From NCBI GenBank assembly GCA_016183985.1, contig JACPDN010000010.1, positions 372,001-436,000 on the forward strand: DNA of 64,000 nucleotides, written 5' to 3'. The DNA is from Pseudomonadota bacterium (GTDB taxonomy: Bacteria > Pseudomonadota > Alphaproteobacteria > Dongiales > Dongiaceae). Numbering within the stretch: the first letter of the stretch is position 1; each line of letters starts with the position of its first letter. The translations under genes and the position numbers were made by a program. Under the pieces are notes generated by a model that was not told where the DNA came from, did no database searches, and saw only the letters and a list, made by a program, of their open reading frames with translations. Below are positions 14,715 through 56,841 of this stretch, piece by piece.

Positions 14715-15302
14715 ATGAACGACATCGACCGCCTCATCCAGATCATGGGCCGACTGCCGGGCCTCGGTCCGCGCTCGGCGCGGCGGGCGGTGTTGCATCT
14801 CCTCAAGAAGCGCGAAGCCTTGCTGCATCCGCTCATCGATGCGCTGGGCGAGGTCGCGGCCCATGTGAAGACCTGCTCGGTCTGCGGTAATCTCGATGCC
14901 GCCGATCCGTGCAGCATCTGCCGTGACACCTCCCGCGATGCGACGCAAATCTGCGTCGTCGCCGATGTCGGCGATCTTTGGGCGCTGGAGCGCATTGCTA
15001 CGTTCAAGGGTCGCTATCACGTGCTGGGTGGCGTGCTCTCGGCCCTCGACGGCGTGGGGCCGGAACAGCTTTCCATCGCCCCGTTACTGCGCCGGCTGGA
15101 AGGGGGCGAGGTCAAGGAGGTGATCCTGGCCTTAGGAGCCACGGTCGACGGGCAGACCACGGCCCATTACCTCTCCGACCGGCTGCAGCCGCTGAATGTC
15201 ACGATCTCACGCCTCGCCCATGGTGTGCCCGTGGGGGGCGAACTCGATTATCTTGACGACGGCACCCTCATTCAGGCCCTGAAGGCACGGCAAAAGCTCT
15301 GA
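14715..15302 (+). CDS. recR: Recombination mediator protein RecR
   Basis: Works with RecO and RecF to load RecA on gapped DNA. The 195-residue protein has an N-terminal helix-hairpin-helix ([17 protein letters not shown], about residues 10-26), a four-cysteine zinc finger at Cys54, Cys57, Cys66 and Cys69, and a Toprim domain from about residue 79 ([10 protein letters not shown]) through the [18 protein letters not shown] region. The length is normal. It is separated from ybaB by the inverted-repeat element and is followed 73 bases later by the MotB-like pair. Confidence 0.97.
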
Positions 15303-15375
15303 ATCTGGTCTGGAATCTGGCCTGGGCCTTGCATCTCCGGTAGGATAGAGACGGAAAAAGCCAAGGAATCCCGCA

Positions 15376-16068
15376 TTGTCGGAGCTCGAACCACCCCTCC
15401 CGCGCAAGGAAAGGCGTGCCCGTCAGCGGACTTTGCCGCTGCCGGAGGTGAAATTCGTGCCGGCCGGCAACCCGTCTTTGCCCACTTTCGTCAGCCTGAT
15501 GCTGATGATCACCACTTTCATGATCGTGCTTACCAGCATCTCGCTGCATGAGAACAGCCGCATGCATGAGCTGCTCTCCGGCGTCAAACAGACCTTCGCC
15601 TTGGGCCAGGCGGCGACCCCCACCAAATCCGTGGGCGAGATATTGGGCTCCGCCGCCACAGGCTTCCAGGCCTCGCTGCCAATGGTCAAGGTTGCCGGCG
15701 CCAGCGGCGGCGAATCCCTGCGCCTGATAATCCCCATCGGCGTCGCACTCGACACCACGCAGAAACAGGCAACGCCCGAGATGGAAAAGGCCCTCGCCAC
15801 GCTCGTCACCGGCTTGAGCGAACTACCCAAGGATACCGGCTATGAGATCGAGCTGCGCTTTGCCGATGAGTCCATGAGCGCCGACTATGCCGGCATCCTC
15901 GCCCAGGCTGCGATGAACCGTGGCCTTGCCCCTGCCCGCACGATCATCGGCAATGGCACCCCCAACGACAGGGCTGGCAAGCCCGACGAACTGGCGCTGC
16001 TGGTGCGCCTGACCTTGCCTGCAACCGATTTCGTGCAGAAGCTTCCTGACCAGACGGAGGCGCCGTGA
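15376..16068 (+). CDS. MotB-like membrane protein A (no TM aspartate)
   Basis: A 230-residue protein with a basic cytoplasmic N-terminus, one membrane helix at about 37-57 (PTFVSLMLMITTFMIVLTSI), and a periplasmic part whose order of strands and helices resembles a degenerate OmpA/MotB C-terminal domain (about 125-222). The helix lies where MotB has its plug-proximal TM segment, but the proton-binding Asp is absent. The start is a TTG at 15376 with AAGGAA 7 bases upstream. The stop overlaps the next start in TGATG, so the two proteins are probably made in fixed ratio. The family assignment is an inference from architecture and motif; the function is unknown. Confidence 0.6.
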   Translation: MSELEPPLPRKERRARQRTLPLPEVKFVPAGNPSLPTFVSLMLMITTFMIVLTSISLHENSRMHELLSGVKQTFALGQAATPTKSVGEILGSAATGFQASLPMVKVAGASGGESLRLIIPIGVALDTTQKQATPEMEKALATLVTGLSELPKDTGYEIELRFADESMSADYAGILAQAAMNRGLAPARTIIGNGTPNDRAGKPDELALLVRLTLPATDFVQKLPDQTEAP

Positions 16069-16712
16069 TGTCGGGAGAAAGTTTCATCCGCGTCGGCGAG
16101 GTCAAGCATCAGGAGATCAAGCAGCCGGTCTGGCTGATGAGCTTTGCCGATTTTGCCGGCTGCCTGCTGGCCAGCTTCGTGCTGCTCTATTCCCTGGCGC
16201 AGACCGATCGCGAGAAGATGCAGAACGCCTTCGGCATCGCGCCTGCCGACACTGAGATCGTGGCCGAAGACGGCGCCGCGAAGGAATCCATGGCAGCCAA
16301 AGACGCGCAAGAGGGCCGCGACACGGATTATCTTGCCAATTTGCTCGCCACCAAGATCGAGGGTATCACCGCGTTCGAAGGCGTGAAGATTGAACCGCAA
16401 CTCGACAGCGTCGTCCTCGATCTGCCCATGGCGCGCCTGACCGCTACGGGCGGCACGGATGAGCGTGACAAGGATCTCATCTTCGCCCTGGCCGGCATGC
16501 TCGCCAACATCCCCAATGAGGCGGCCCTTAGCGCCGATCTTCCGCAGGACGGCACCGGGGCCAATTGGACCACGGGCATGACGCTTGCAAACCGCCTCGC
16601 CCAACGCCTCAAGGATGGCGGCGCCCCGGACACATTGCTCGCCCGCACAGCCATCAGCGGCGACGGCGCCCCGCATGTGCGCCTGGTCTTCACGCGCGAG
16701 GCGGGGGAGTAA
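16068..16712 (+). CDS. MotB-like membrane protein B (retains TM aspartate)
   Basis: A 214-residue protein with a single membrane helix at about 22-44. The segment QPVWLMSFADFAGCLLASFV closely resembles the MotB N-terminal pattern PxxSFADFMTLLLxFFV, including Asp28 at the position of the stator proton-binding Asp. The periplasmic part ends in a divergent OmpA-like domain, with ANWTTGMTLANRLAQRLKDG in place of the NxxLSxxRAxxV stretch. The ATG at 16068 has GGAGG 7 bases upstream and overlaps the stop of protein A. No MotA/TolQ/ExbB partner is encoded in this window. Energy-coupled stator-like activity is possible but unproven. Confidence 0.62.
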   Translation: MSGESFIRVGEVKHQEIKQPVWLMSFADFAGCLLASFVLLYSLAQTDREKMQNAFGIAPADTEIVAEDGAAKESMAAKDAQEGRDTDYLANLLATKIEGITAFEGVKIEPQLDSVVLDLPMARLTATGGTDERDKDLIFALAGMLANIPNEAALSADLPQDGTGANWTTGMTLANRLAQRLKDGGAPDTLLARTAISGDGAPHVRLVFTREAGE

Positions 16713-16925: not shown

Positions 16926-18350
16926 ATGCGTTCGCTTCTTGTTGCCGGTACCGCCCTCGCGCTGACCCTGACCTCTCTTGCCGGCGCCTTCGCCGATGAA
17001 ACGCAGGTGACGACCGACAACCAGACCGGTATTGCCGTCACGATTTATAACCAGGATCTGGCGCTGATCCGCGACAGCCGCAAGATCAACCTTGCCGCGG
17101 GCGAGAATGATATCGCCTTCATCGATGTCTCGGCGGCAATGCGGCCGGAAACGGCGCTGCTGAATGCACCGGGCGGGGCGGTCGACGTGCTGGAGCAGAA
17201 TTTCGATTTCGATCTGCTGACGCCGGAAAAGCTGCTGGAGAAATCGGTCGGCCAGAAGATCCGCGTCTTCCGCACCAATCCCGAGACCGGCGAGGATAGC
17301 AGCGAAGAAGCCGAAGTGCTCTCGGTGGCTGGCGGCCAGGCGGTCTTGAAGATCGGCGACCGCATCGAGACCGCGATCCCCGGCCGCTTCGTCTATTCCG
17401 GTGTGCCGGCCAATTTGCGCGCAAGACCCACGCTGGTGATCAAGGCCGTGGCCGACAAGGCCGGCGAGGTGCCGGTCGATCTTTCATACTTGAGCCGCGG
17501 CCTTTCCTGGTCGGCTGATTATGTCGTCGATCTCGGCGCGGATGAAAAGAGCGTCAACATCAACGGCCTCGTGACGCTCACCAATCAGAGCGGCATTACC
17601 TACAAGGACGCCAAGCTCCAGCTCGTCGCCGGCAATGTCAACCAGGTGCAGCCGATGCTAGAACGCGCCGGCGGCATGGTGGCGATGGACGCGATGCCGT
17701 CGGCCGCACCGAAGATGGTCGAGCAGGCGGCATTCGAATACCACCTCTATAGCCTCGAGCGCCCGACCACGATCAAAGAGAACCAGACCAAGCAGGTGGC
17801 GATGCTCTCAGCCGCCGAAGTGCCGGTCGAGAAGCAATACCTCATCACCAATGCCGCGAATGTCTGGGGCAATTACGGCTATAATTTCGGCGAGGGCCCG
17901 CGCCAGAACGCAGCGGTAAAGCTGAAATTCGAGAACGACGAGAAATCCCATATGGGCATGCCGCTGCCGGCCGGCATCGTGCGCGTCTATAAGAAGGATG
18001 CGCAGGGCAACACCCTCTTCGTCGGCGAAGATCATATCGACCACACGCCAAAGAATGAGCGCGTCGACCTGACCCTGGGCGAAGCGTTCGACATCACCGC
18101 CCGCGCCAAGCAGACCAACTACACCAAACTCGCCGACGATCTCTACGAGAACGCCTACGAAGTCGAGATCAAGAACGCGAAAAAGGAAAAGGTCACCGTC
18201 GACCTCCGCGAAGCCTTCCCCGGCGAATGGAAAATGCTCGACGAAACCCAGAAGCACGAAAAACTCGATTCCAACACCGCGCAATGGTTGGTCGACGTTC
18301 CCGCGGAGGGTTCGACAGTTCTGACGTATTCCGTGCGGATTAAGCTGTAA
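16926..18350 (+). CDS. DUF4139 domain exported protein
   Basis: A 474-residue protein with a cleavable signal peptide (residues 1-23, ending GAFA-DET). The mature part begins with the ITIYNQDLALI-like strand and contains LSYLSRGLSWSADYVVDL, YKDAKLQLVAGNVNQ and a C-terminal KVTVDLREAFPGEW-type region, the hallmarks of DUF4139. Eukaryotic and bacterial relatives include the mucoidy-inhibitor-like proteins; no biochemical role is firmly known. It is probably periplasmic. The gene is monocistronic, bounded by a REP-like palindrome upstream and a large inverted repeat downstream. Confidence 0.82.
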   Translation: MRSLLVAGTALALTLTSLAGAFADETQVTTDNQTGIAVTIYNQDLALIRDSRKINLAAGENDIAFIDVSAAMRPETALLNAPGGAVDVLEQNFDFDLLTPEKLLEKSVGQKIRVFRTNPETGEDSSEEAEVLSVAGGQAVLKIGDRIETAIPGRFVYSGVPANLRARPTLVIKAVADKAGEVPVDLSYLSRGLSWSADYVVDLGADEKSVNINGLVTLTNQSGITYKDAKLQLVAGNVNQVQPMLERAGGMVAMDAMPSAAPKMVEQAAFEYHLYSLERPTTIKENQTKQVAMLSAAEVPVEKQYLITNAANVWGNYGYNFGEGPRQNAAVKLKFENDEKSHMGMPLPAGIVRVYKKDAQGNTLFVGEDHIDHTPKNERVDLTLGEAFDITARAKQTNYTKLADDLYENAYEVEIKNAKKEKVTVDLREAFPGEWKMLDETQKHEKLDSNTAQWLVDVPAEGSTVLTYSVRIKL

Positions 18351-50868: not shown

Positions 50869-53800
50869 ATGGGCAAAGGGGATCAGGATTCCGGAACGGC
50901 GCGTGGCCTGTTGAAGGCCGCTGCGGGCAATGATCCGGGTACCAGGCACCATCACCGCGCCGTCCTTCTAGGCAGCCTGCTGACGGTCGCTTGGTTCGCC
51001 GCCTATGGCTGGCACGTCGCCGATGCGGTGGGGATCGAGAACCTGCAGGATCTGATGCCGGCGGAACTGGCGCAGATCATCATCGCCCTCTTCTCGCCCG
51101 CGGTCTTCGTCTGGGTCGTCATCGGCTATGTCTCGCGCGGGCGCGACCTCGAGCGCCAGACGGCGCTCCTCGCCCAGCAGCTCAACATGCTGACCTATCC
51201 CAACCCCCAGGCCGAACAGCGCGTGGCGACGGTGGCCGATGCGATCCGCCGCCAGACCATCGAATTGAAGGCTGCGACCGAGGATGCGGCCGCCGCACTC
51301 GCCCAGATCGAGAACCGCTTCCAGCACCAGCGCGGCGATCTCGACAATGCCGCCAAGGCCGTGCGCGTCGAGACCGATGGGGTCGAAGCGCAGCTTGGCA
51401 AGCAGCGCCAGCTCCTCGCCGACATGCAGGGAATCCTTTCCGAGCAGAAGGCGGCGCTCAAGAAAGCCGGCGAATTGGAAACGGAGGCGCTGGAAAGCGT
51501 CGCCGCCGATTCCGCCGAGCGGGTCGTCGCGGCTTTCGAGGCCAAGCGTCAGGACATCAGCGCCATTCTCGACCGCGTGATCGATCACGGTTCATCCGTC
51601 CGCGATGCGGTGGAGCGGCAGGCGGAGATTCTGGCCGATAGCGCCGAGAAGGCGACGCAGGGCATGCGCAATGAGCTGACTGCGCTCACGCGCCGGCTCG
51701 ACGAGGCCGGCGAAGCGGCGCGGCGCGAAGGCCGGGCGCTTTCGGAAGCCGGCGACCAGCAGCTTGCCTCGATCAACGAGATCGTCGGCAAGGCAGCGCG
51801 CGAGTTCAACCAGCAGCTCGATGCCCTGGGCCGCAGCACGGTCGAGGCGATCGAGCAGGGCAAGCGTAATTCGGCCGAAGCCGAAGGCGCCTTGCGCCAA
51901 GTCGTGTCGGAGATAACGGCCCAAGCCGGGCGCCATGCCAATGAAGTGGCGCAGGCCCTGGCGCTGCAGTTGCAGGGCATCAATGCGGCGAAGGCCCAGG
52001 CGATCGATGCCGGCGAGGAATTGCAGGCGGGCCTCACGGCGCAGGCAGCGCGCTTGGCGGAACGCACCACCGATGCCTTCGCCTTGATGCGCGGCGAGAT
52101 CGCGCAGGAGATCGCGACACTCAAGGAAAGCGAAGACAAGGCAGCCGCCCGCTACCGCGAGCTTGATCGCAACATGGCCGTGCATCTCGGCGCCCTCGAC
52201 AAGGCTTTCGAGACGGCCGGCAGCGCGCTGGAAACACGTTCTGCAACCGAGCAGGCCAACATCACCGCCGCCACGGAGGCGACCGAGACGCGCATCAACG
52301 CGGTCCTCGCCGCGATCGAGCGCCAGAGCCGCGATATGCACGACCAGGCGGAAGCAAGCGCCGAGCGCTTTGCCAACACGCTGCGCCGCCATCACGAACT
52401 GGTATCGGCCACCGCCACGGCAACGGTCGGCGAGGTGATGCGCAAGACCGCCGAGATCCAGCGCCAGATGCGCGAAGAGGGTGACCTTTCCGTGGCCGCT
52501 GCGAAATCCTTGGCCGAGGATTTCACCAATTCGCTGGCCCGCATCGGCGAGATCGTCACCGAAAGCGCCACCCGCGCCAGACATGACAACACGCTGCTTG
52601 AAGAAACCACGCGCCATCAATCCGAACGCCTGACGAGTGCAGCCCTCGCCGCCGCCGAGCAGTTCCGCACCTCGCTCGACCGCATGTCGGGCGATACGGC
52701 GGCGATGATCCGCGCCCTCATGGACAAGATCAGCGAGCAGAACCAGGCGGTGAAATCGGCACTCCGCACCGAAGCGACCGATTTCCAGGAATCGACCGGC
52801 CGGGTCAGCGAGCAGATCGGCCAGCGTTTTGCCGAGATGCTGAAATCGATCGAGGCGGTCGCCGCCACTGCCGGCACCGAGACCGAAGGCCTGGTTGCCA
52901 AGGTCGATGCGCAAGGATCGCGGCTCAACATCGCCGCCGATGCGGCAGCACAACGCCTGCGCCAACACATAGATGCCGAGACGGCGAAGCTCGCCGAGCT
53001 TGGCGAGGCTGCCGATACGCGACATGCCGATCTGGTGAAAGCGATCGACAATGCCCATACCGCCCTGAGCGGTGCGGCGGACTCGCATGCCGAGCGTTTC
53101 GGCACGTTGCTAAAGCGGCAGGAAGAGCGCCTGAGCGTCCTCAGCGATGCGCAGGAGGCGACCAGCCGGCGCCTTGGCCAGACCGTGGAATCGCAAGGGC
53201 ACCTCCTCGAACAGGCGGCGGACCGTGCCGCCGAGCGGCTGGCGCAGCGCCTGCGCGAGAATGAAACGGCACTTGGCGCCGGCATCGCGGCACTCGTCGC
53301 CGAAACCAAATCGCTCGACGCCACTGTGGCGACGCAGCGCGAGAAGCTGGCCGAAGCCGGCGCCGAGGCCAGCATCAAGATCCGCGCCGAGCTCGACACA
53401 CATGCCGTTTCCCTCAACCAGATGGCCGCGGAGCTTGCCGCCAAGGTGGGCCTGCTGAGCCAGGCCGTGGATGCCGAGGGTGTCGCGCTGACACGGACCT
53501 TGCAGGCCAGCACCGAGAAGACGATGGCGGATCTGCGCGCCGAAACGGAGCGCCAGCAAATCGCCATGGCGACCCATGCCGAGACCTTGTCGGCGCGCCT
53601 GCGTGCCAATGAAACGGCGATGACGGCCAATGTGAACGAGGTGATGGAACGCGCCGCTTCGCTCGATACCGCGATCGCCGATCAACGCCAGCGCCTCAGC
53701 GATGCCGGCACCGCGGCGACGGGCCAGATCCGAACCGAACTTGACGCCCATGCCGTGGCCTTGAATGCCATGGCAGCGGGCCTTGCGGGATCAATACAGC

Positions 53801-56800
53801 TGCTGAGCCGCGCGGTGGAGGCCGAACAGACGGCGCTCACGCGCCATTTCCAGGAAACGGGCGAGAATGCGCTTGGCGAGCTCAAGCTCGAAAGCGAACG
53901 CCAGCGCCAATCCATGAGCGCCCATGCCGAAGCGCTGGTGGCGCATCTGCGCGGCAACGGCGTGACGCTCGAAGATCACATGAAGAACGTGCTGGACCGG
54001 GCCGCAGCACTCGATGACACCATCGGCCAGCAGCGCGACCGCCTGCGGGACGCAGGCGAAGCGGCGAGCAGCCTGATGCGCGGCGAACTCGATGCCCATG
54101 CGGCACGGCTTGAAACCATGGCGGCCGGCATCGGTGAGAAGGTGGCTGGCCTTTCCGCCACCATCGGTACCGAGAGCGGGCGGCTGGACGAGAGTTTCCG
54201 CAACACGGCCGATCAAACCGTGGCACGGCTCAAGGACACTTTCACGGCACAGGAAAGCGAGATCGAGCGCATTGCCACCTCGCTTGGCCTTAAAGTGGCC
54301 GGCCTGGGCGAAACGGTGAAAGCCGAGAGCCAAACCCTCGCCGATGCGATCCAGGGCGCCGGCGACGGTGCCGTGGCACGGTTGAAGGGCGAGATCGAGC
54401 GGCAGATTTCCGGCATGGAAGGCCTCACCGCGACACTCATCACCCGCACGACCGCGCTTGACGGCACGATTCTGAGCCAACGCGACCATCTGGTCGAAGC
54501 GGCAGCCGCGGCAGCGGAAGGCTTCCGCGACATCCTGCGGCGCCAGGCCGATGAATTTGTCTCAGCCGCGGAAGCTGTCGCCAGCCGTTCGGCAGCGCTT
54601 GAGGGCGTCACCCACGCCCAGCGCGATGAGCTGATTGCCGCCTCGAAACATGCGGCGGAACATTTTGCGAGCGCCTTGCGCCTGCAGGCGCAGGAGATCG
54701 CCGCCGCGACGGCCGCCGCCGTCCAGCAGACCGAAGGGCTGGGTGCCGCCGCCCGCGTCCAGGCCGAGAACCTTGCCGCCATGATGGCGGAAAGCACGCG
54801 GCGCTTCGAGGCCGTCACGGCCGAACACAGCGCGAGCCTGGCCGATGCCGGCGAAAAGGCCGGCAGCGCCGTGCGCGAAAAGCTCGCTGCGCAGTATGCC
54901 GATATCGACCGGCGCTTTGCCGATATCGTGACGCAGGGCGACAGGCTGCATGTCAGCGCCGACGAACAGGCCGTGACCCTCGGCAAGGCCGCCGAGCAGG
55001 CGGCGCAGGTTGCCATCGCCATGCGCGATGCGCTGGCCGACCAGGCCCGCCAAGTCGGCATTGTGGGTCTGGAGATCAACGAGAAGGCGCTGGAGGCCGG
55101 CCGTGTCATGCAGCGCCAGGCTGGCGATCTCGCCGAGGCGCTGGGGGCCATCGTGCAGAAGAATGCCGCAACGCTGAAGGCGGCCACGGAACAGGCGGGC
55201 GTTCAGGCGATCGAATTGGGGCAGTCGCTGATGCGGCAGAATGACGAGCTCGGTGCAGCTCTCAGCCGCACGCAAGCCGCCACCACCGAAATCCGCGACG
55301 CCTTGAAGACGCAAATCGAGGAATTGTCGGCCGTGACGCAGAAGGTCGAGGTGGAAGCGCGCGTCATCGGCACCGTGTTCCGCACCGAGGCCGACACCCT
55401 GCGCGAGGCGGCGGAGAAAGCCTCCGGCACCGCCGGCGATCTGCAGCAGCGCATGCGCGACGGCCTTGCCGCCCTCGACGGCGTTGCAACCACAGCACTC
55501 GCCAAGGCCGCCGAACTGCATCATGACGTGGCGCGCCAGAGCGAATTGGTGAAGCAGGCGACCGAAGAAGGCGGCAAGCGCACGGCGGAACTGGCCGGCC
55601 TCTACGAAGGCCATGCGCGGCAATTGTCGCAGGCCTCAGAAATGGCGCGCGACAAGCTGGAGCAGATGGGTAAGTCCCTGGCCGCCCAGGCCGAGATTCT
55701 CTCCACCATCACCGACCAGGCGGTGGGGCGGCAACAGCAGCTTAACGTGACACTCGGCCAGCGGGTCGAACAGTTGGCGGCGGTCGGCAAGGAAGGCCAG
55801 CAGCAGCTCTCGACACTCAATATTTCAGCGCAGAATCTCGCTGAATTCCTGCGCGGCACGACATCGGAAAGCACGCGCCAGGCCAAGGAGACGATCCAGC
55901 TGTTCCGCGACGGTGCCGAGGCGCTGTCGCAAGTCACCAAGAAGGCAGCGCAGCAGGTGAGCGGCGTCAAGGCATCGGTGGCCGAACAGATCACCGAACT
56001 GACCGATCTCTCCGTCAAGGTGCATGACATGGCGGAGCAGGTGCGCGGACAGCTGCGCGCCCAGGCCAAGGAGTTCTCCGATGCGGCCACGGCCGCCAAG
56101 GCCCCGGCCGAGGGGGCCAGGGGCGACGCGCAGCAGGCATCCGAGATCCTCAACCGCCAGGTGGAATCGCTCGCTCAAGCAGCGGCGCGCATGAACCAGC
56201 ATCTTTCCGGCCTCGGCACCGATATCGACAAGCGCATCGAGGCGATGAGCCGCGCCGCCGAGAACGCCGCCGGACGGGTGGGCGCCATCGGGCAGAGCTT
56301 CGAGCGCCAGGCCGAAGGCTTCGGCCGCGCCCTCGATCTGGCGCAGGCGAAGGCAGCCGAACTGGGCGAGGCCTTCCGCACCCAGAGCCTGGACCTCGCC
56401 AAGACTTCGCAGATCGCCTTGGAGCGGATCGACAAGCTCAGGGAAACGCAGACCAATTCGACCCGCGACAGCTTCCTGCGCGCGGCCTCGGTGATGATCG
56501 AGGAACTCAACAGCCTGGCGCTCGACATTCACGGCCTCCTCGACAACGAGGTGCCGGAGGATATCTGGAAGCGTTACCGCGAAGGCGATCGGTCGATCTT
56601 CGCCAGGCGCCTGTTCCGCAACAAGGACTCATACGTCATCCCGGCGATCGAGCAACGCTATAGCCGCGACGAGCGCTTCCACGACATCGTCGACCGCTAC
56701 ATGAAGAAATTCGAGGATCTGCTGGCTCAGTCTGCGAAAGCAGACCCTGAGGCTGTACTGAATGCCGCCATCATCACCGCCGATGTCGGCAAGCTCTATC

Positions 56801-56841
56801 TGGTGATGGCCAAGAGCCTGGGCCGCAGTCTGGAGAATTGA
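50869..56841 (+). CDS. Giant membrane-anchored coiled-coil protein, GPR/TipN-like
   Basis: A 1990-residue protein. Two membrane helices (31-49 and 67-88) leave both ends in the cytoplasm. A huge coiled-coil/apolipoprotein-like region (about 90-1870), rich in Ala, Glu, Gln and Arg and very low in proline, follows, and a C-terminal globular domain (about 1875-1990) contains SLALDIHGLLDNEVPEDIWK and GDRSIFARRLFRNKDSYVIP. This layout and the C-terminal motif recall GPR of Agrobacterium (about 2100 residues, growth-pole ring) and TipN of Caulobacter, both polar organisers. Three tandem 116-residue repeats lie at 795-1142. The polar role is inferred. Confidence 0.72.
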   Translation: MGKGDQDSGTARGLLKAAAGNDPGTRHHHRAVLLGSLLTVAWFAAYGWHVADAVGIENLQDLMPAELAQIIIALFSPAVFVWVVIGYVSRGRDLERQTALLAQQLNMLTYPNPQAEQRVATVADAIRRQTIELKAATEDAAAALAQIENRFQHQRGDLDNAAKAVRVETDGVEAQLGKQRQLLADMQGILSEQKAALKKAGELETEALESVAADSAERVVAAFEAKRQDISAILDRVIDHGSSVRDAVERQAEILADSAEKATQGMRNELTALTRRLDEAGEAARREGRALSEAGDQQLASINEIVGKAAREFNQQLDALGRSTVEAIEQGKRNSAEAEGALRQVVSEITAQAGRHANEVAQALALQLQGINAAKAQAIDAGEELQAGLTAQAARLAERTTDAFALMRGEIAQEIATLKESEDKAAARYRELDRNMAVHLGALDKAFETAGSALETRSATEQANITAATEATETRINAVLAAIERQSRDMHDQAEASAERFANTLRRHHELVSATATATVGEVMRKTAEIQRQMREEGDLSVAAAKSLAEDFTNSLARIGEIVTESATRARHDNTLLEETTRHQSERLTSAALAAAEQFRTSLDRMSGDTAAMIRALMDKISEQNQAVKSALRTEATDFQESTGRVSEQIGQRFAEMLKSIEAVAATAGTETEGLVAKVDAQGSRLNIAADAAAQRLRQHIDAETAKLAELGEAADTRHADLVKAIDNAHTALSGAADSHAERFGTLLKRQEERLSVLSDAQEATSRRLGQTVESQGHLLEQAADRAAERLAQRLRENETALGAGIAALVAETKSLDATVATQREKLAEAGAEASIKIRAELDTHAVSLNQMAAELAAKVGLLSQAVDAEGVALTRTLQASTEKTMADLRAETERQQIAMATHAETLSARLRANETAMTANVNEVMERAASLDTAIADQRQRLSDAGTAATGQIRTELDAHAVALNAMAAGLAGSIQLLSRAVEAEQTALTRHFQETGENALGELKLESERQRQSMSAHAEALVAHLRGNGVTLEDHMKNVLDRAAALDDTIGQQRDRLRDAGEAASSLMRGELDAHAARLETMAAGIGEKVAGLSATIGTESGRLDESFRNTADQTVARLKDTFTAQESEIERIATSLGLKVAGLGETVKAESQTLADAIQGAGDGAVARLKGEIERQISGMEGLTATLITRTTALDGTILSQRDHLVEAAAAAAEGFRDILRRQADEFVSAAEAVASRSAALEGVTHAQRDELIAASKHAAEHFASALRLQAQEIAAATAAAVQQTEGLGAAARVQAENLAAMMAESTRRFEAVTAEHSASLADAGEKAGSAVREKLAAQYADIDRRFADIVTQGDRLHVSADEQAVTLGKAAEQAAQVAIAMRDALADQARQVGIVGLEINEKALEAGRVMQRQAGDLAEALGAIVQKNAATLKAATEQAGVQAIELGQSLMRQNDELGAALSRTQAATTEIRDALKTQIEELSAVTQKVEVEARVIGTVFRTEADTLREAAEKASGTAGDLQQRMRDGLAALDGVATTALAKAAELHHDVARQSELVKQATEEGGKRTAELAGLYEGHARQLSQASEMARDKLEQMGKSLAAQAEILSTITDQAVGRQQQLNVTLGQRVEQLAAVGKEGQQQLSTLNISAQNLAEFLRGTTSESTRQAKETIQLFRDGAEALSQVTKKAAQQVSGVKASVAEQITELTDLSVKVHDMAEQVRGQLRAQAKEFSDAATAAKAPAEGARGDAQQASEILNRQVESLAQAAARMNQHLSGLGTDIDKRIEAMSRAAENAAGRVGAIGQSFERQAEGFGRALDLAQAKAAELGEAFRTQSLDLAKTSQIALERIDKLRETQTNSTRDSFLRAASVMIEELNSLALDIHGLLDNEVPEDIWKRYREGDRSIFARRLFRNKDSYVIPAIEQRYSRDERFHDIVDRYMKKFEDLLAQSAKADPEAVLNAAIITADVGKLYLVMAKSLGRSLEN
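53251..54294 (+). repeat. Three tandem 348-base repeats within the giant gene
   Basis: Units begin at 53251, 53599 and 53947, each exactly 348 bases (116 residues) long with no gaps. Each starts with LR(E/A/G)N and contains SLD(A/T)xxxxQR, an AELD(T/A)HAVxLNxMAA-like core and an (E/T)xxRQ segment. Protein similarity is high between units 1 and 2 and lower for unit 3, so the duplication is old enough to have diverged. Confidence 0.85.

Follow-up and report, generated by a model that had tools for sequence, protein, structure and literature searches.

In the stretch of DNA analysed here (64 kb, hereafter the window), two overlapping genes encode a pair of MotB homologues, of which the second (ORF2) contains the ion-binding Asp of MotB and the first (ORF1) does not. 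The two proteins probably serve together as the B subunits of one flagellar stator, which would be completed by a PomA-type MotA encoded near fliG on another contig. Membership of the pair in a flagellar stator is well supported, and we infer that ORF1 and ORF2 form a heterodimer within a MotA5 ring, which would leave it a single ion-binding carboxylate in place of the usual pair and result in half-site operation. More tentatively, and with rather less than even confidence, we propose that this constitutes a natural and widespread flagellar motor, in which a MotA5 ring round an ORF1-ORF2 heterodimer would consume five ions per turn in steps of 72 degrees.

Upstream of the pair and on the same (+) strand, the gene order is dnaX, an adjoining short ORF and recR (14715–15302), which is recognized by its Pfam RecR domains, lies directly before the pair and is given as context only. 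ORF1 (15376–16068, + strand, 230 amino acids) begins at a TTG codon that is conserved in the three nearest orthologues and is preceded by a Shine-Dalgarno-like AAGGA (15363–15367). The best start of ORF2 (16068–16712, + strand, 214 amino acids) is the ATG at 16068, situated inside the stop codon of ORF1 in the overlap TGATG (16066–16070) and preceded by a Shine-Dalgarno-like GGAGG (16056–16060). An earlier note on this DNA had described two genes overlapping in this manner directly after recR, and the ORFs bear out that description. A DUF4139/MuiA-like protein, also a neighbour in the closest relatives (L009, L011), is encoded directly downstream at 16926–18350. Further along the window, a 1990-residue ORF (50869–56841) has no Pfam match at E 1e-5.

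ORF2 matches the Pfam family MotB_plug (PF13677; E 7.3e-10, 38.7 bits, cut-off 24), which is matched by all 38 of the 38 ORF2-family members. Its transmembrane helix region, defined by the Pfam match and the AlphaFold2 model, consists of residues 22 through 43 (16131–16196, + strand) and includes Asp28 (codon GAT, 16149–16151), the equivalent of the ion-binding Asp of MotB that the earlier note had picked out. Residues 82 through 211 (16311–16700, + strand) are predicted to form a periplasmic MotB/OmpA-like fold, as judged by VIA-align, and the alignment shows the signature GHTD...NWxLSxxRA to be lost in the window's protein. The AlphaFold2 model (mean pLDDT 77.5) superposes in VIA-align on MotS (Z 13.9, rmsd 2.7, 124 aligned) and on MotB (Z 12.1, rmsd 3.8, 130 aligned).

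ORF1 by itself matches no Pfam family and falls below the MotB_plug threshold. Its assignment derives from its family, 34 of whose 38 members match MotB_plug, from an hhalign alignment of the ORF1-family profile with that of the ORF2 family (prob 99.3, E 1.5e-20), and from profile matches in the PDB, which are to PomB/MotB. The AlphaFold2 model contains a helix of residues 34 through 75, and this and the alignment place the transmembrane region at residues 35 through 56 (15478–15543, + strand), the core of which lacks any charged residue. Ser40 (15493–15495, + strand) aligns with the Asp of MotB, so that the helix Asp characteristic of stator B subunits is absent; the helix was earlier read as similar to that of ORF2 but without the Asp, and the alignments agree. 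Because 97 of 102 orthologues likewise lack the Asp, we refer to ORF1 as a MotB paralogue and not as a MotB. Residues 86 through 214 (15631–16017, + strand) form a periplasmic MotB/OmpA-like domain, modelled mostly at pLDDT >90, in which the peptidoglycan-binding signature is lost. In VIA-align, the ORF1 model (mean pLDDT 82.3) superposes on YiaD (Z 12.3, rmsd 3.9, 129 aligned) and on PomB (Z 10.3, rmsd 3.0, 122 aligned), and Foldseek matches the periplasmic parts of both models to MotB, PomB, MotS and YiaD. Structure prediction of the single chains, a check proposed in the earlier note, thus yields a MotB/PomB-like periplasmic fold for each protein, in keeping with its view that these parts are decayed OmpA domains, since the fold is preserved and the peptidoglycan-binding residues are missing. 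The possibility that ORF1 is an unrelated small membrane protein is ruled out by the profile alignment and the fold.

ORF1 and ORF2 are MotB homologues derived from an old duplication. In two trees, each forms one clade, with SH-aLRT values of 97 and 99 in the first and 97 and 96 in the second. ORF2 is present in 16 of the 17 genomes of the same order; in a survey of named genomes the nearest is a Dongia, and the pair also occurs in Azospirillum, Nitrospirillum, Aestuariispira and Curvivirga. ORF1 adjoins ORF2 in 136 of 137 related loci. At three loci (L021, L022 and L034), the open frame of ORF2 extends far upstream and ORF1 is nonetheless present, and at L167 (G148:C2:195000-199000) ORF2 occurs without a detectable ORF1, the upstream gene reading as aminoacyl-tRNA synthetase-like. 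Within the order, the pair is located directly behind cheZ in 8 of 16 loci and behind recR in the closest relatives of the window; across the class, a cheZ motif directly precedes it in at least 50 of 102 distinct loci, a lower bound owing to short flanks and a strict motif. In plasmid records, ORF1 has no relative and ORF2 just one distant MotB.

Among 102 distinct pairs, the aligned helix position is Asp in every ORF2, while the ORF1s have Ser (60), Gly (26), Ala (10), Asp (5) or Thr (1). Other positions of the ORF1 helix are MotB-like, with Phe at +8 in 100 and at +9 in 97 of the 102. A shifted acidic residue was sought elsewhere in the same 102 helices and found only in L023, as Glu at +2. 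The five Asp-bearing ORF1s (L021, L022, L142, L157 and L159) retain the complete MotB Trp-Asp motif, the upstream Trp of which is missing from the other ORF1s, and they are natural comparators for the Asp-less majority. Their existence indicates that loss of the Asp is dispensable for the pair. They are mostly found on the deepest branches, three of them being deepest in both trees, whereas the Dongia-family member branches deep in one tree but lies nested in the other, and the two trees disagree on whether the G013/G014 ORF1 inherited its Asp or regained it. The Asp was likely ancestral in ORF1 and lost later, as far as the branching of these sequences suggests. The peptidoglycan-binding signature, scored by regular expression, is found in none of the ORF1s and not in the window's ORF2, and is complete in 49 of the 102 ORF2s; a normal wall-binding domain was therefore probably present at the origin of the family and was lost in the lineage of the window. 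Covariation between ORF1 and ORF2 over the 102 pairs gave weak signals, at an effective depth of 93.

The earlier note reported no MotA partner for the pair. This holds within the 64-kb window, where no MotA/TolQ-type gene is present, but not for the genome, which encodes five, all on other contigs: TolQ and an ExbB-like protein, each in its own operon, a conventional MotA beside a MotB, a distant MotA beside an OmpA-like protein, and a PomA-type MotA. The last of these (contig C13, 333951–334799, 283 amino acids) belongs to a fliG-fliH-motA cluster, 1.2 kb from the single fliG, and has no MotB beside it. It matches PomA with an E-value of 4e-50 and contains the GTL and LLTT pore motifs of PomA. 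The earlier note had recommended a survey of recR neighbourhoods in relatives for a MotA/TolQ gene elsewhere; in related genomes, the distribution of this MotA type follows that of the pair. Among 385 genomes of the class, 91 have both the pair (or ORF2) and the PomA-type MotA, 6 have ORF2 only, 10 have the MotA only and 278 have neither, the MotA type being defined by E below about 1e-52 and the counts being uncorrected for phylogeny and hence confounded by ancestry. The two occur together in 91 of the 107 genomes with either, and these 91 are spread over 49 families. The PomA-type MotA is situated at most 6 kb from FliG in 70 of 80 genomes, and FliG was detected in 92 of 97 pair-bearing genomes, the assemblies of the remaining five being fragmented.

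The window's genome also contains a conventional MotA/MotB set, of another type and with its genes side by side (G000:C1:22461-23169; L004, L006). The pair is therefore not its sole candidate stator: the one fliG points to one flagellum, for which there are two candidates. This conventional alphaproteobacterial set resembles the system proposed here in having a protein with MotB_plug and an OmpA-like domain beside a MotA, and differs in its distant MotA and single B gene. In 24 genomes of the class, several of them nearly complete, strong MotB_plug proteins are present and FliG was not detected; the conventional type may serve a non-flagellar role in some species. On another contig of the window's genome (G000:C9; L005:964-3089), a gene for a 368-residue MotA-like protein adjoins one for a 320-residue protein with an OmpA-like end, possibly a further envelope motor.

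Four genomes (G098, G220, G309 and G304), each with one fliG, offer no such second candidate. Searches up to E 1 revealed no MotB_plug protein in them besides ORF1 and ORF2, and of MotA/TolQ-type genes they have the PomA-type MotA and one that is TolQ-like, with one additional weak match in G098; no other plausible flagellar MotA was found in the four. Assembly completeness is at least 95% for three of them and 91% for G309. If the flagella of these organisms turn, ORF1, ORF2 and the PomA-type MotA must drive them.

Stators consist of a MotA5 ring round two B helices, in which the Asp of each B subunit takes an ion in turn, and 10 ions and 36-degree steps are predicted for each turn of the ring (PMC9389320). 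In the proposed stator, the central dimer of the MotA5 ring would be composed of one ORF1 and one ORF2, the one Asp, that of ORF2, would take up the ions, and the ORF1 helix would act as a passive half-axle. With one Asp available in this axle, a full turn of the ring would be expected to require 5 ions in 72-degree steps, a stoichiometry that, according to a review, would require an entirely new model (PMC9389320). Such half-site operation may sacrifice torque in order to save ions or gain speed. Binding to peptidoglycan has been lost via ORF1 throughout and via ORF2 in the window's lineage, and it is thus probably a scaffold and not direct wall contact that holds the unit there; stators held by a scaffold without peptidoglycan contact have been described in Campylobacter (PMC11870540). 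The sequences taken alone would fit equally well with half-site operation, with loose coupling or with ORF1 as an accessory.

The last of these is the alternative that survives best, although we regard it as unlikely. The MotA ring would then enclose a homodimer of ORF2, as in ordinary MotB-type stators, and ORF1 would be a MotB-derived accessory protein or chaperone that positions, stabilizes or plugs the stator from outside the ring. Stator accessory proteins are known, for example MotK and MotE of Cereibacter (PMC10954123), one genome has ORF2 without ORF1, and the Asp, the Trp next to it and the peptidoglycan signature are all lost from ORF1, while nearly half of the ORF2s retain the full signature. 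However, the MotB helix pattern is retained in ORF1, including the near-invariant Phe at +8 and the Phe at +9, five ORF1s have the full Trp-Asp motif, and the near-universal adjacency of the genes fits a fixed stoichiometry, all of which speaks against an accessory role.

Far less probable is that ORF1 serves as a dummy B subunit, competing with ORF2 and inactivating or weakening some stators such that torque is set by dosage. A dominant-negative effect would be expected of a B subunit without the Asp if its homodimers were inactive or if it poisoned heterodimers, and translational coupling would fix its dose; one-to-one pairing at all but one locus over many families is nevertheless unexpected for a mere inhibitor, which would moreover occur even in genomes with this as the only stator. 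Least probable of all is that the pair is part of an envelope motor or anchor other than the flagellum (Tol, Exb, Agl or Zorya-like). The position of the window's pair behind recR, away from motility genes, and the existence in the class of MotB-type proteins without FliG might speak for this reading; against it stand the tracking of the pair with FliG and flagellar MotA, its location behind cheZ in many relatives and its status as the sole MotB-type pair in the four genomes with one fliG. The profile searches suggested earlier matched the MotB family and not ExbD/TolR (PF02472), for which the window proteins gave no match and only 2/38 and 1/38 relatives did, with E above 0.02; no PADLOC family, the Zorya models included, matched the window proteins at E up to 1. 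On these grounds, motors of the Zorya or Tol/Exb type were dropped. The earlier note had envisaged either a heterodimeric stator or an anchor unrelated to motility. The former is the better of the two readings and is well supported as regards stator membership, and the association with FliG, with MotA of the flagellar cluster and often with cheZ argues against the anchor.

The stator proposed for the pair shares with the 5:2 rotary motors PomA/PomB and MotA/MotB the B-subunit fold, the membrane motif, a PomA-type A subunit and the link to fliG and cheZ. In those stators, however, the two B subunits are identical and Asp-bearing, whereas the B subunits of the present pair are paralogues, of which one lacks the Asp, and the A subunit is encoded far from both. 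The gliding motor AglR-AglQ-AglS of Myxococcus xanthus similarly combines one MotA/TolQ-type with two MotB/TolR-type proteins. AglQ and AglS are both predicted to bear the Asp, and whether they form hetero- or homodimers is not known (PMC9389320); ORF1, by contrast, is without the Asp, and AglRQS powers gliding and not a flagellum. A literature search in which subscription journals were thinly covered found neither an Asp-less MotB paralogue nor a heterodimeric flagellar stator described. A study of stator evolution inferred B genes by proximity to A, stating that in most genomes B consistently follows A immediately (PMC12505986), a method that would miss a pair with a distant MotA. A review of a marine magnetotactic genome notes, in addition to complete sets, one pomA and one motB that stand singly (PMC7175107).

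A B pair with one Asp in 49 families, and as the only possible stator in some genomes, raises the question of whether a 5:2 motor needs two ion sites. In structures, the unequal pair would also serve as a built-in marker of how the B dimer is oriented. Many Alphaproteobacteria, including Azospirillum, may have a flagellar stator that is not solely the conventional MotA/MotB set.

Unequal B pairs are not confined to this class. In a different class of the same phylum, a single operon comprises motA, a gene for a MotB-like protein with Glu (Gln in L243) at the Asp position, and a gene for a MotB with the Asp (L232, L233, L235, L236, L238, L239 and L242-L246). A FliL-like gene comes next in the loci read and a FliM-like gene follows it in one, both names being readings of the sequence without a domain search. 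These loci resemble the window's in their unequal B pair and differ in that the first B protein has Glu or Gln in place of Ser or Gly and retains an OmpA signature. Two further families of Pseudomonadota (L240, L241) contain motA-motB-motB arrangements, in which two motB genes, adjacent to each other as in the window, lie next to a PomA-type MotA; unlike the window's pair, both MotB copies retain the Asp. The Glu/Gln and Asp/Asp tandems appear to be duplications separate from that of ORF1 and ORF2, from which it follows that unequal B pairs probably arose more than once. Asymmetric pairs appear to have originated at least twice, with Ser, Gly or Ala at the Asp position in Alphaproteobacteria and with Glu or Gln in the other class.
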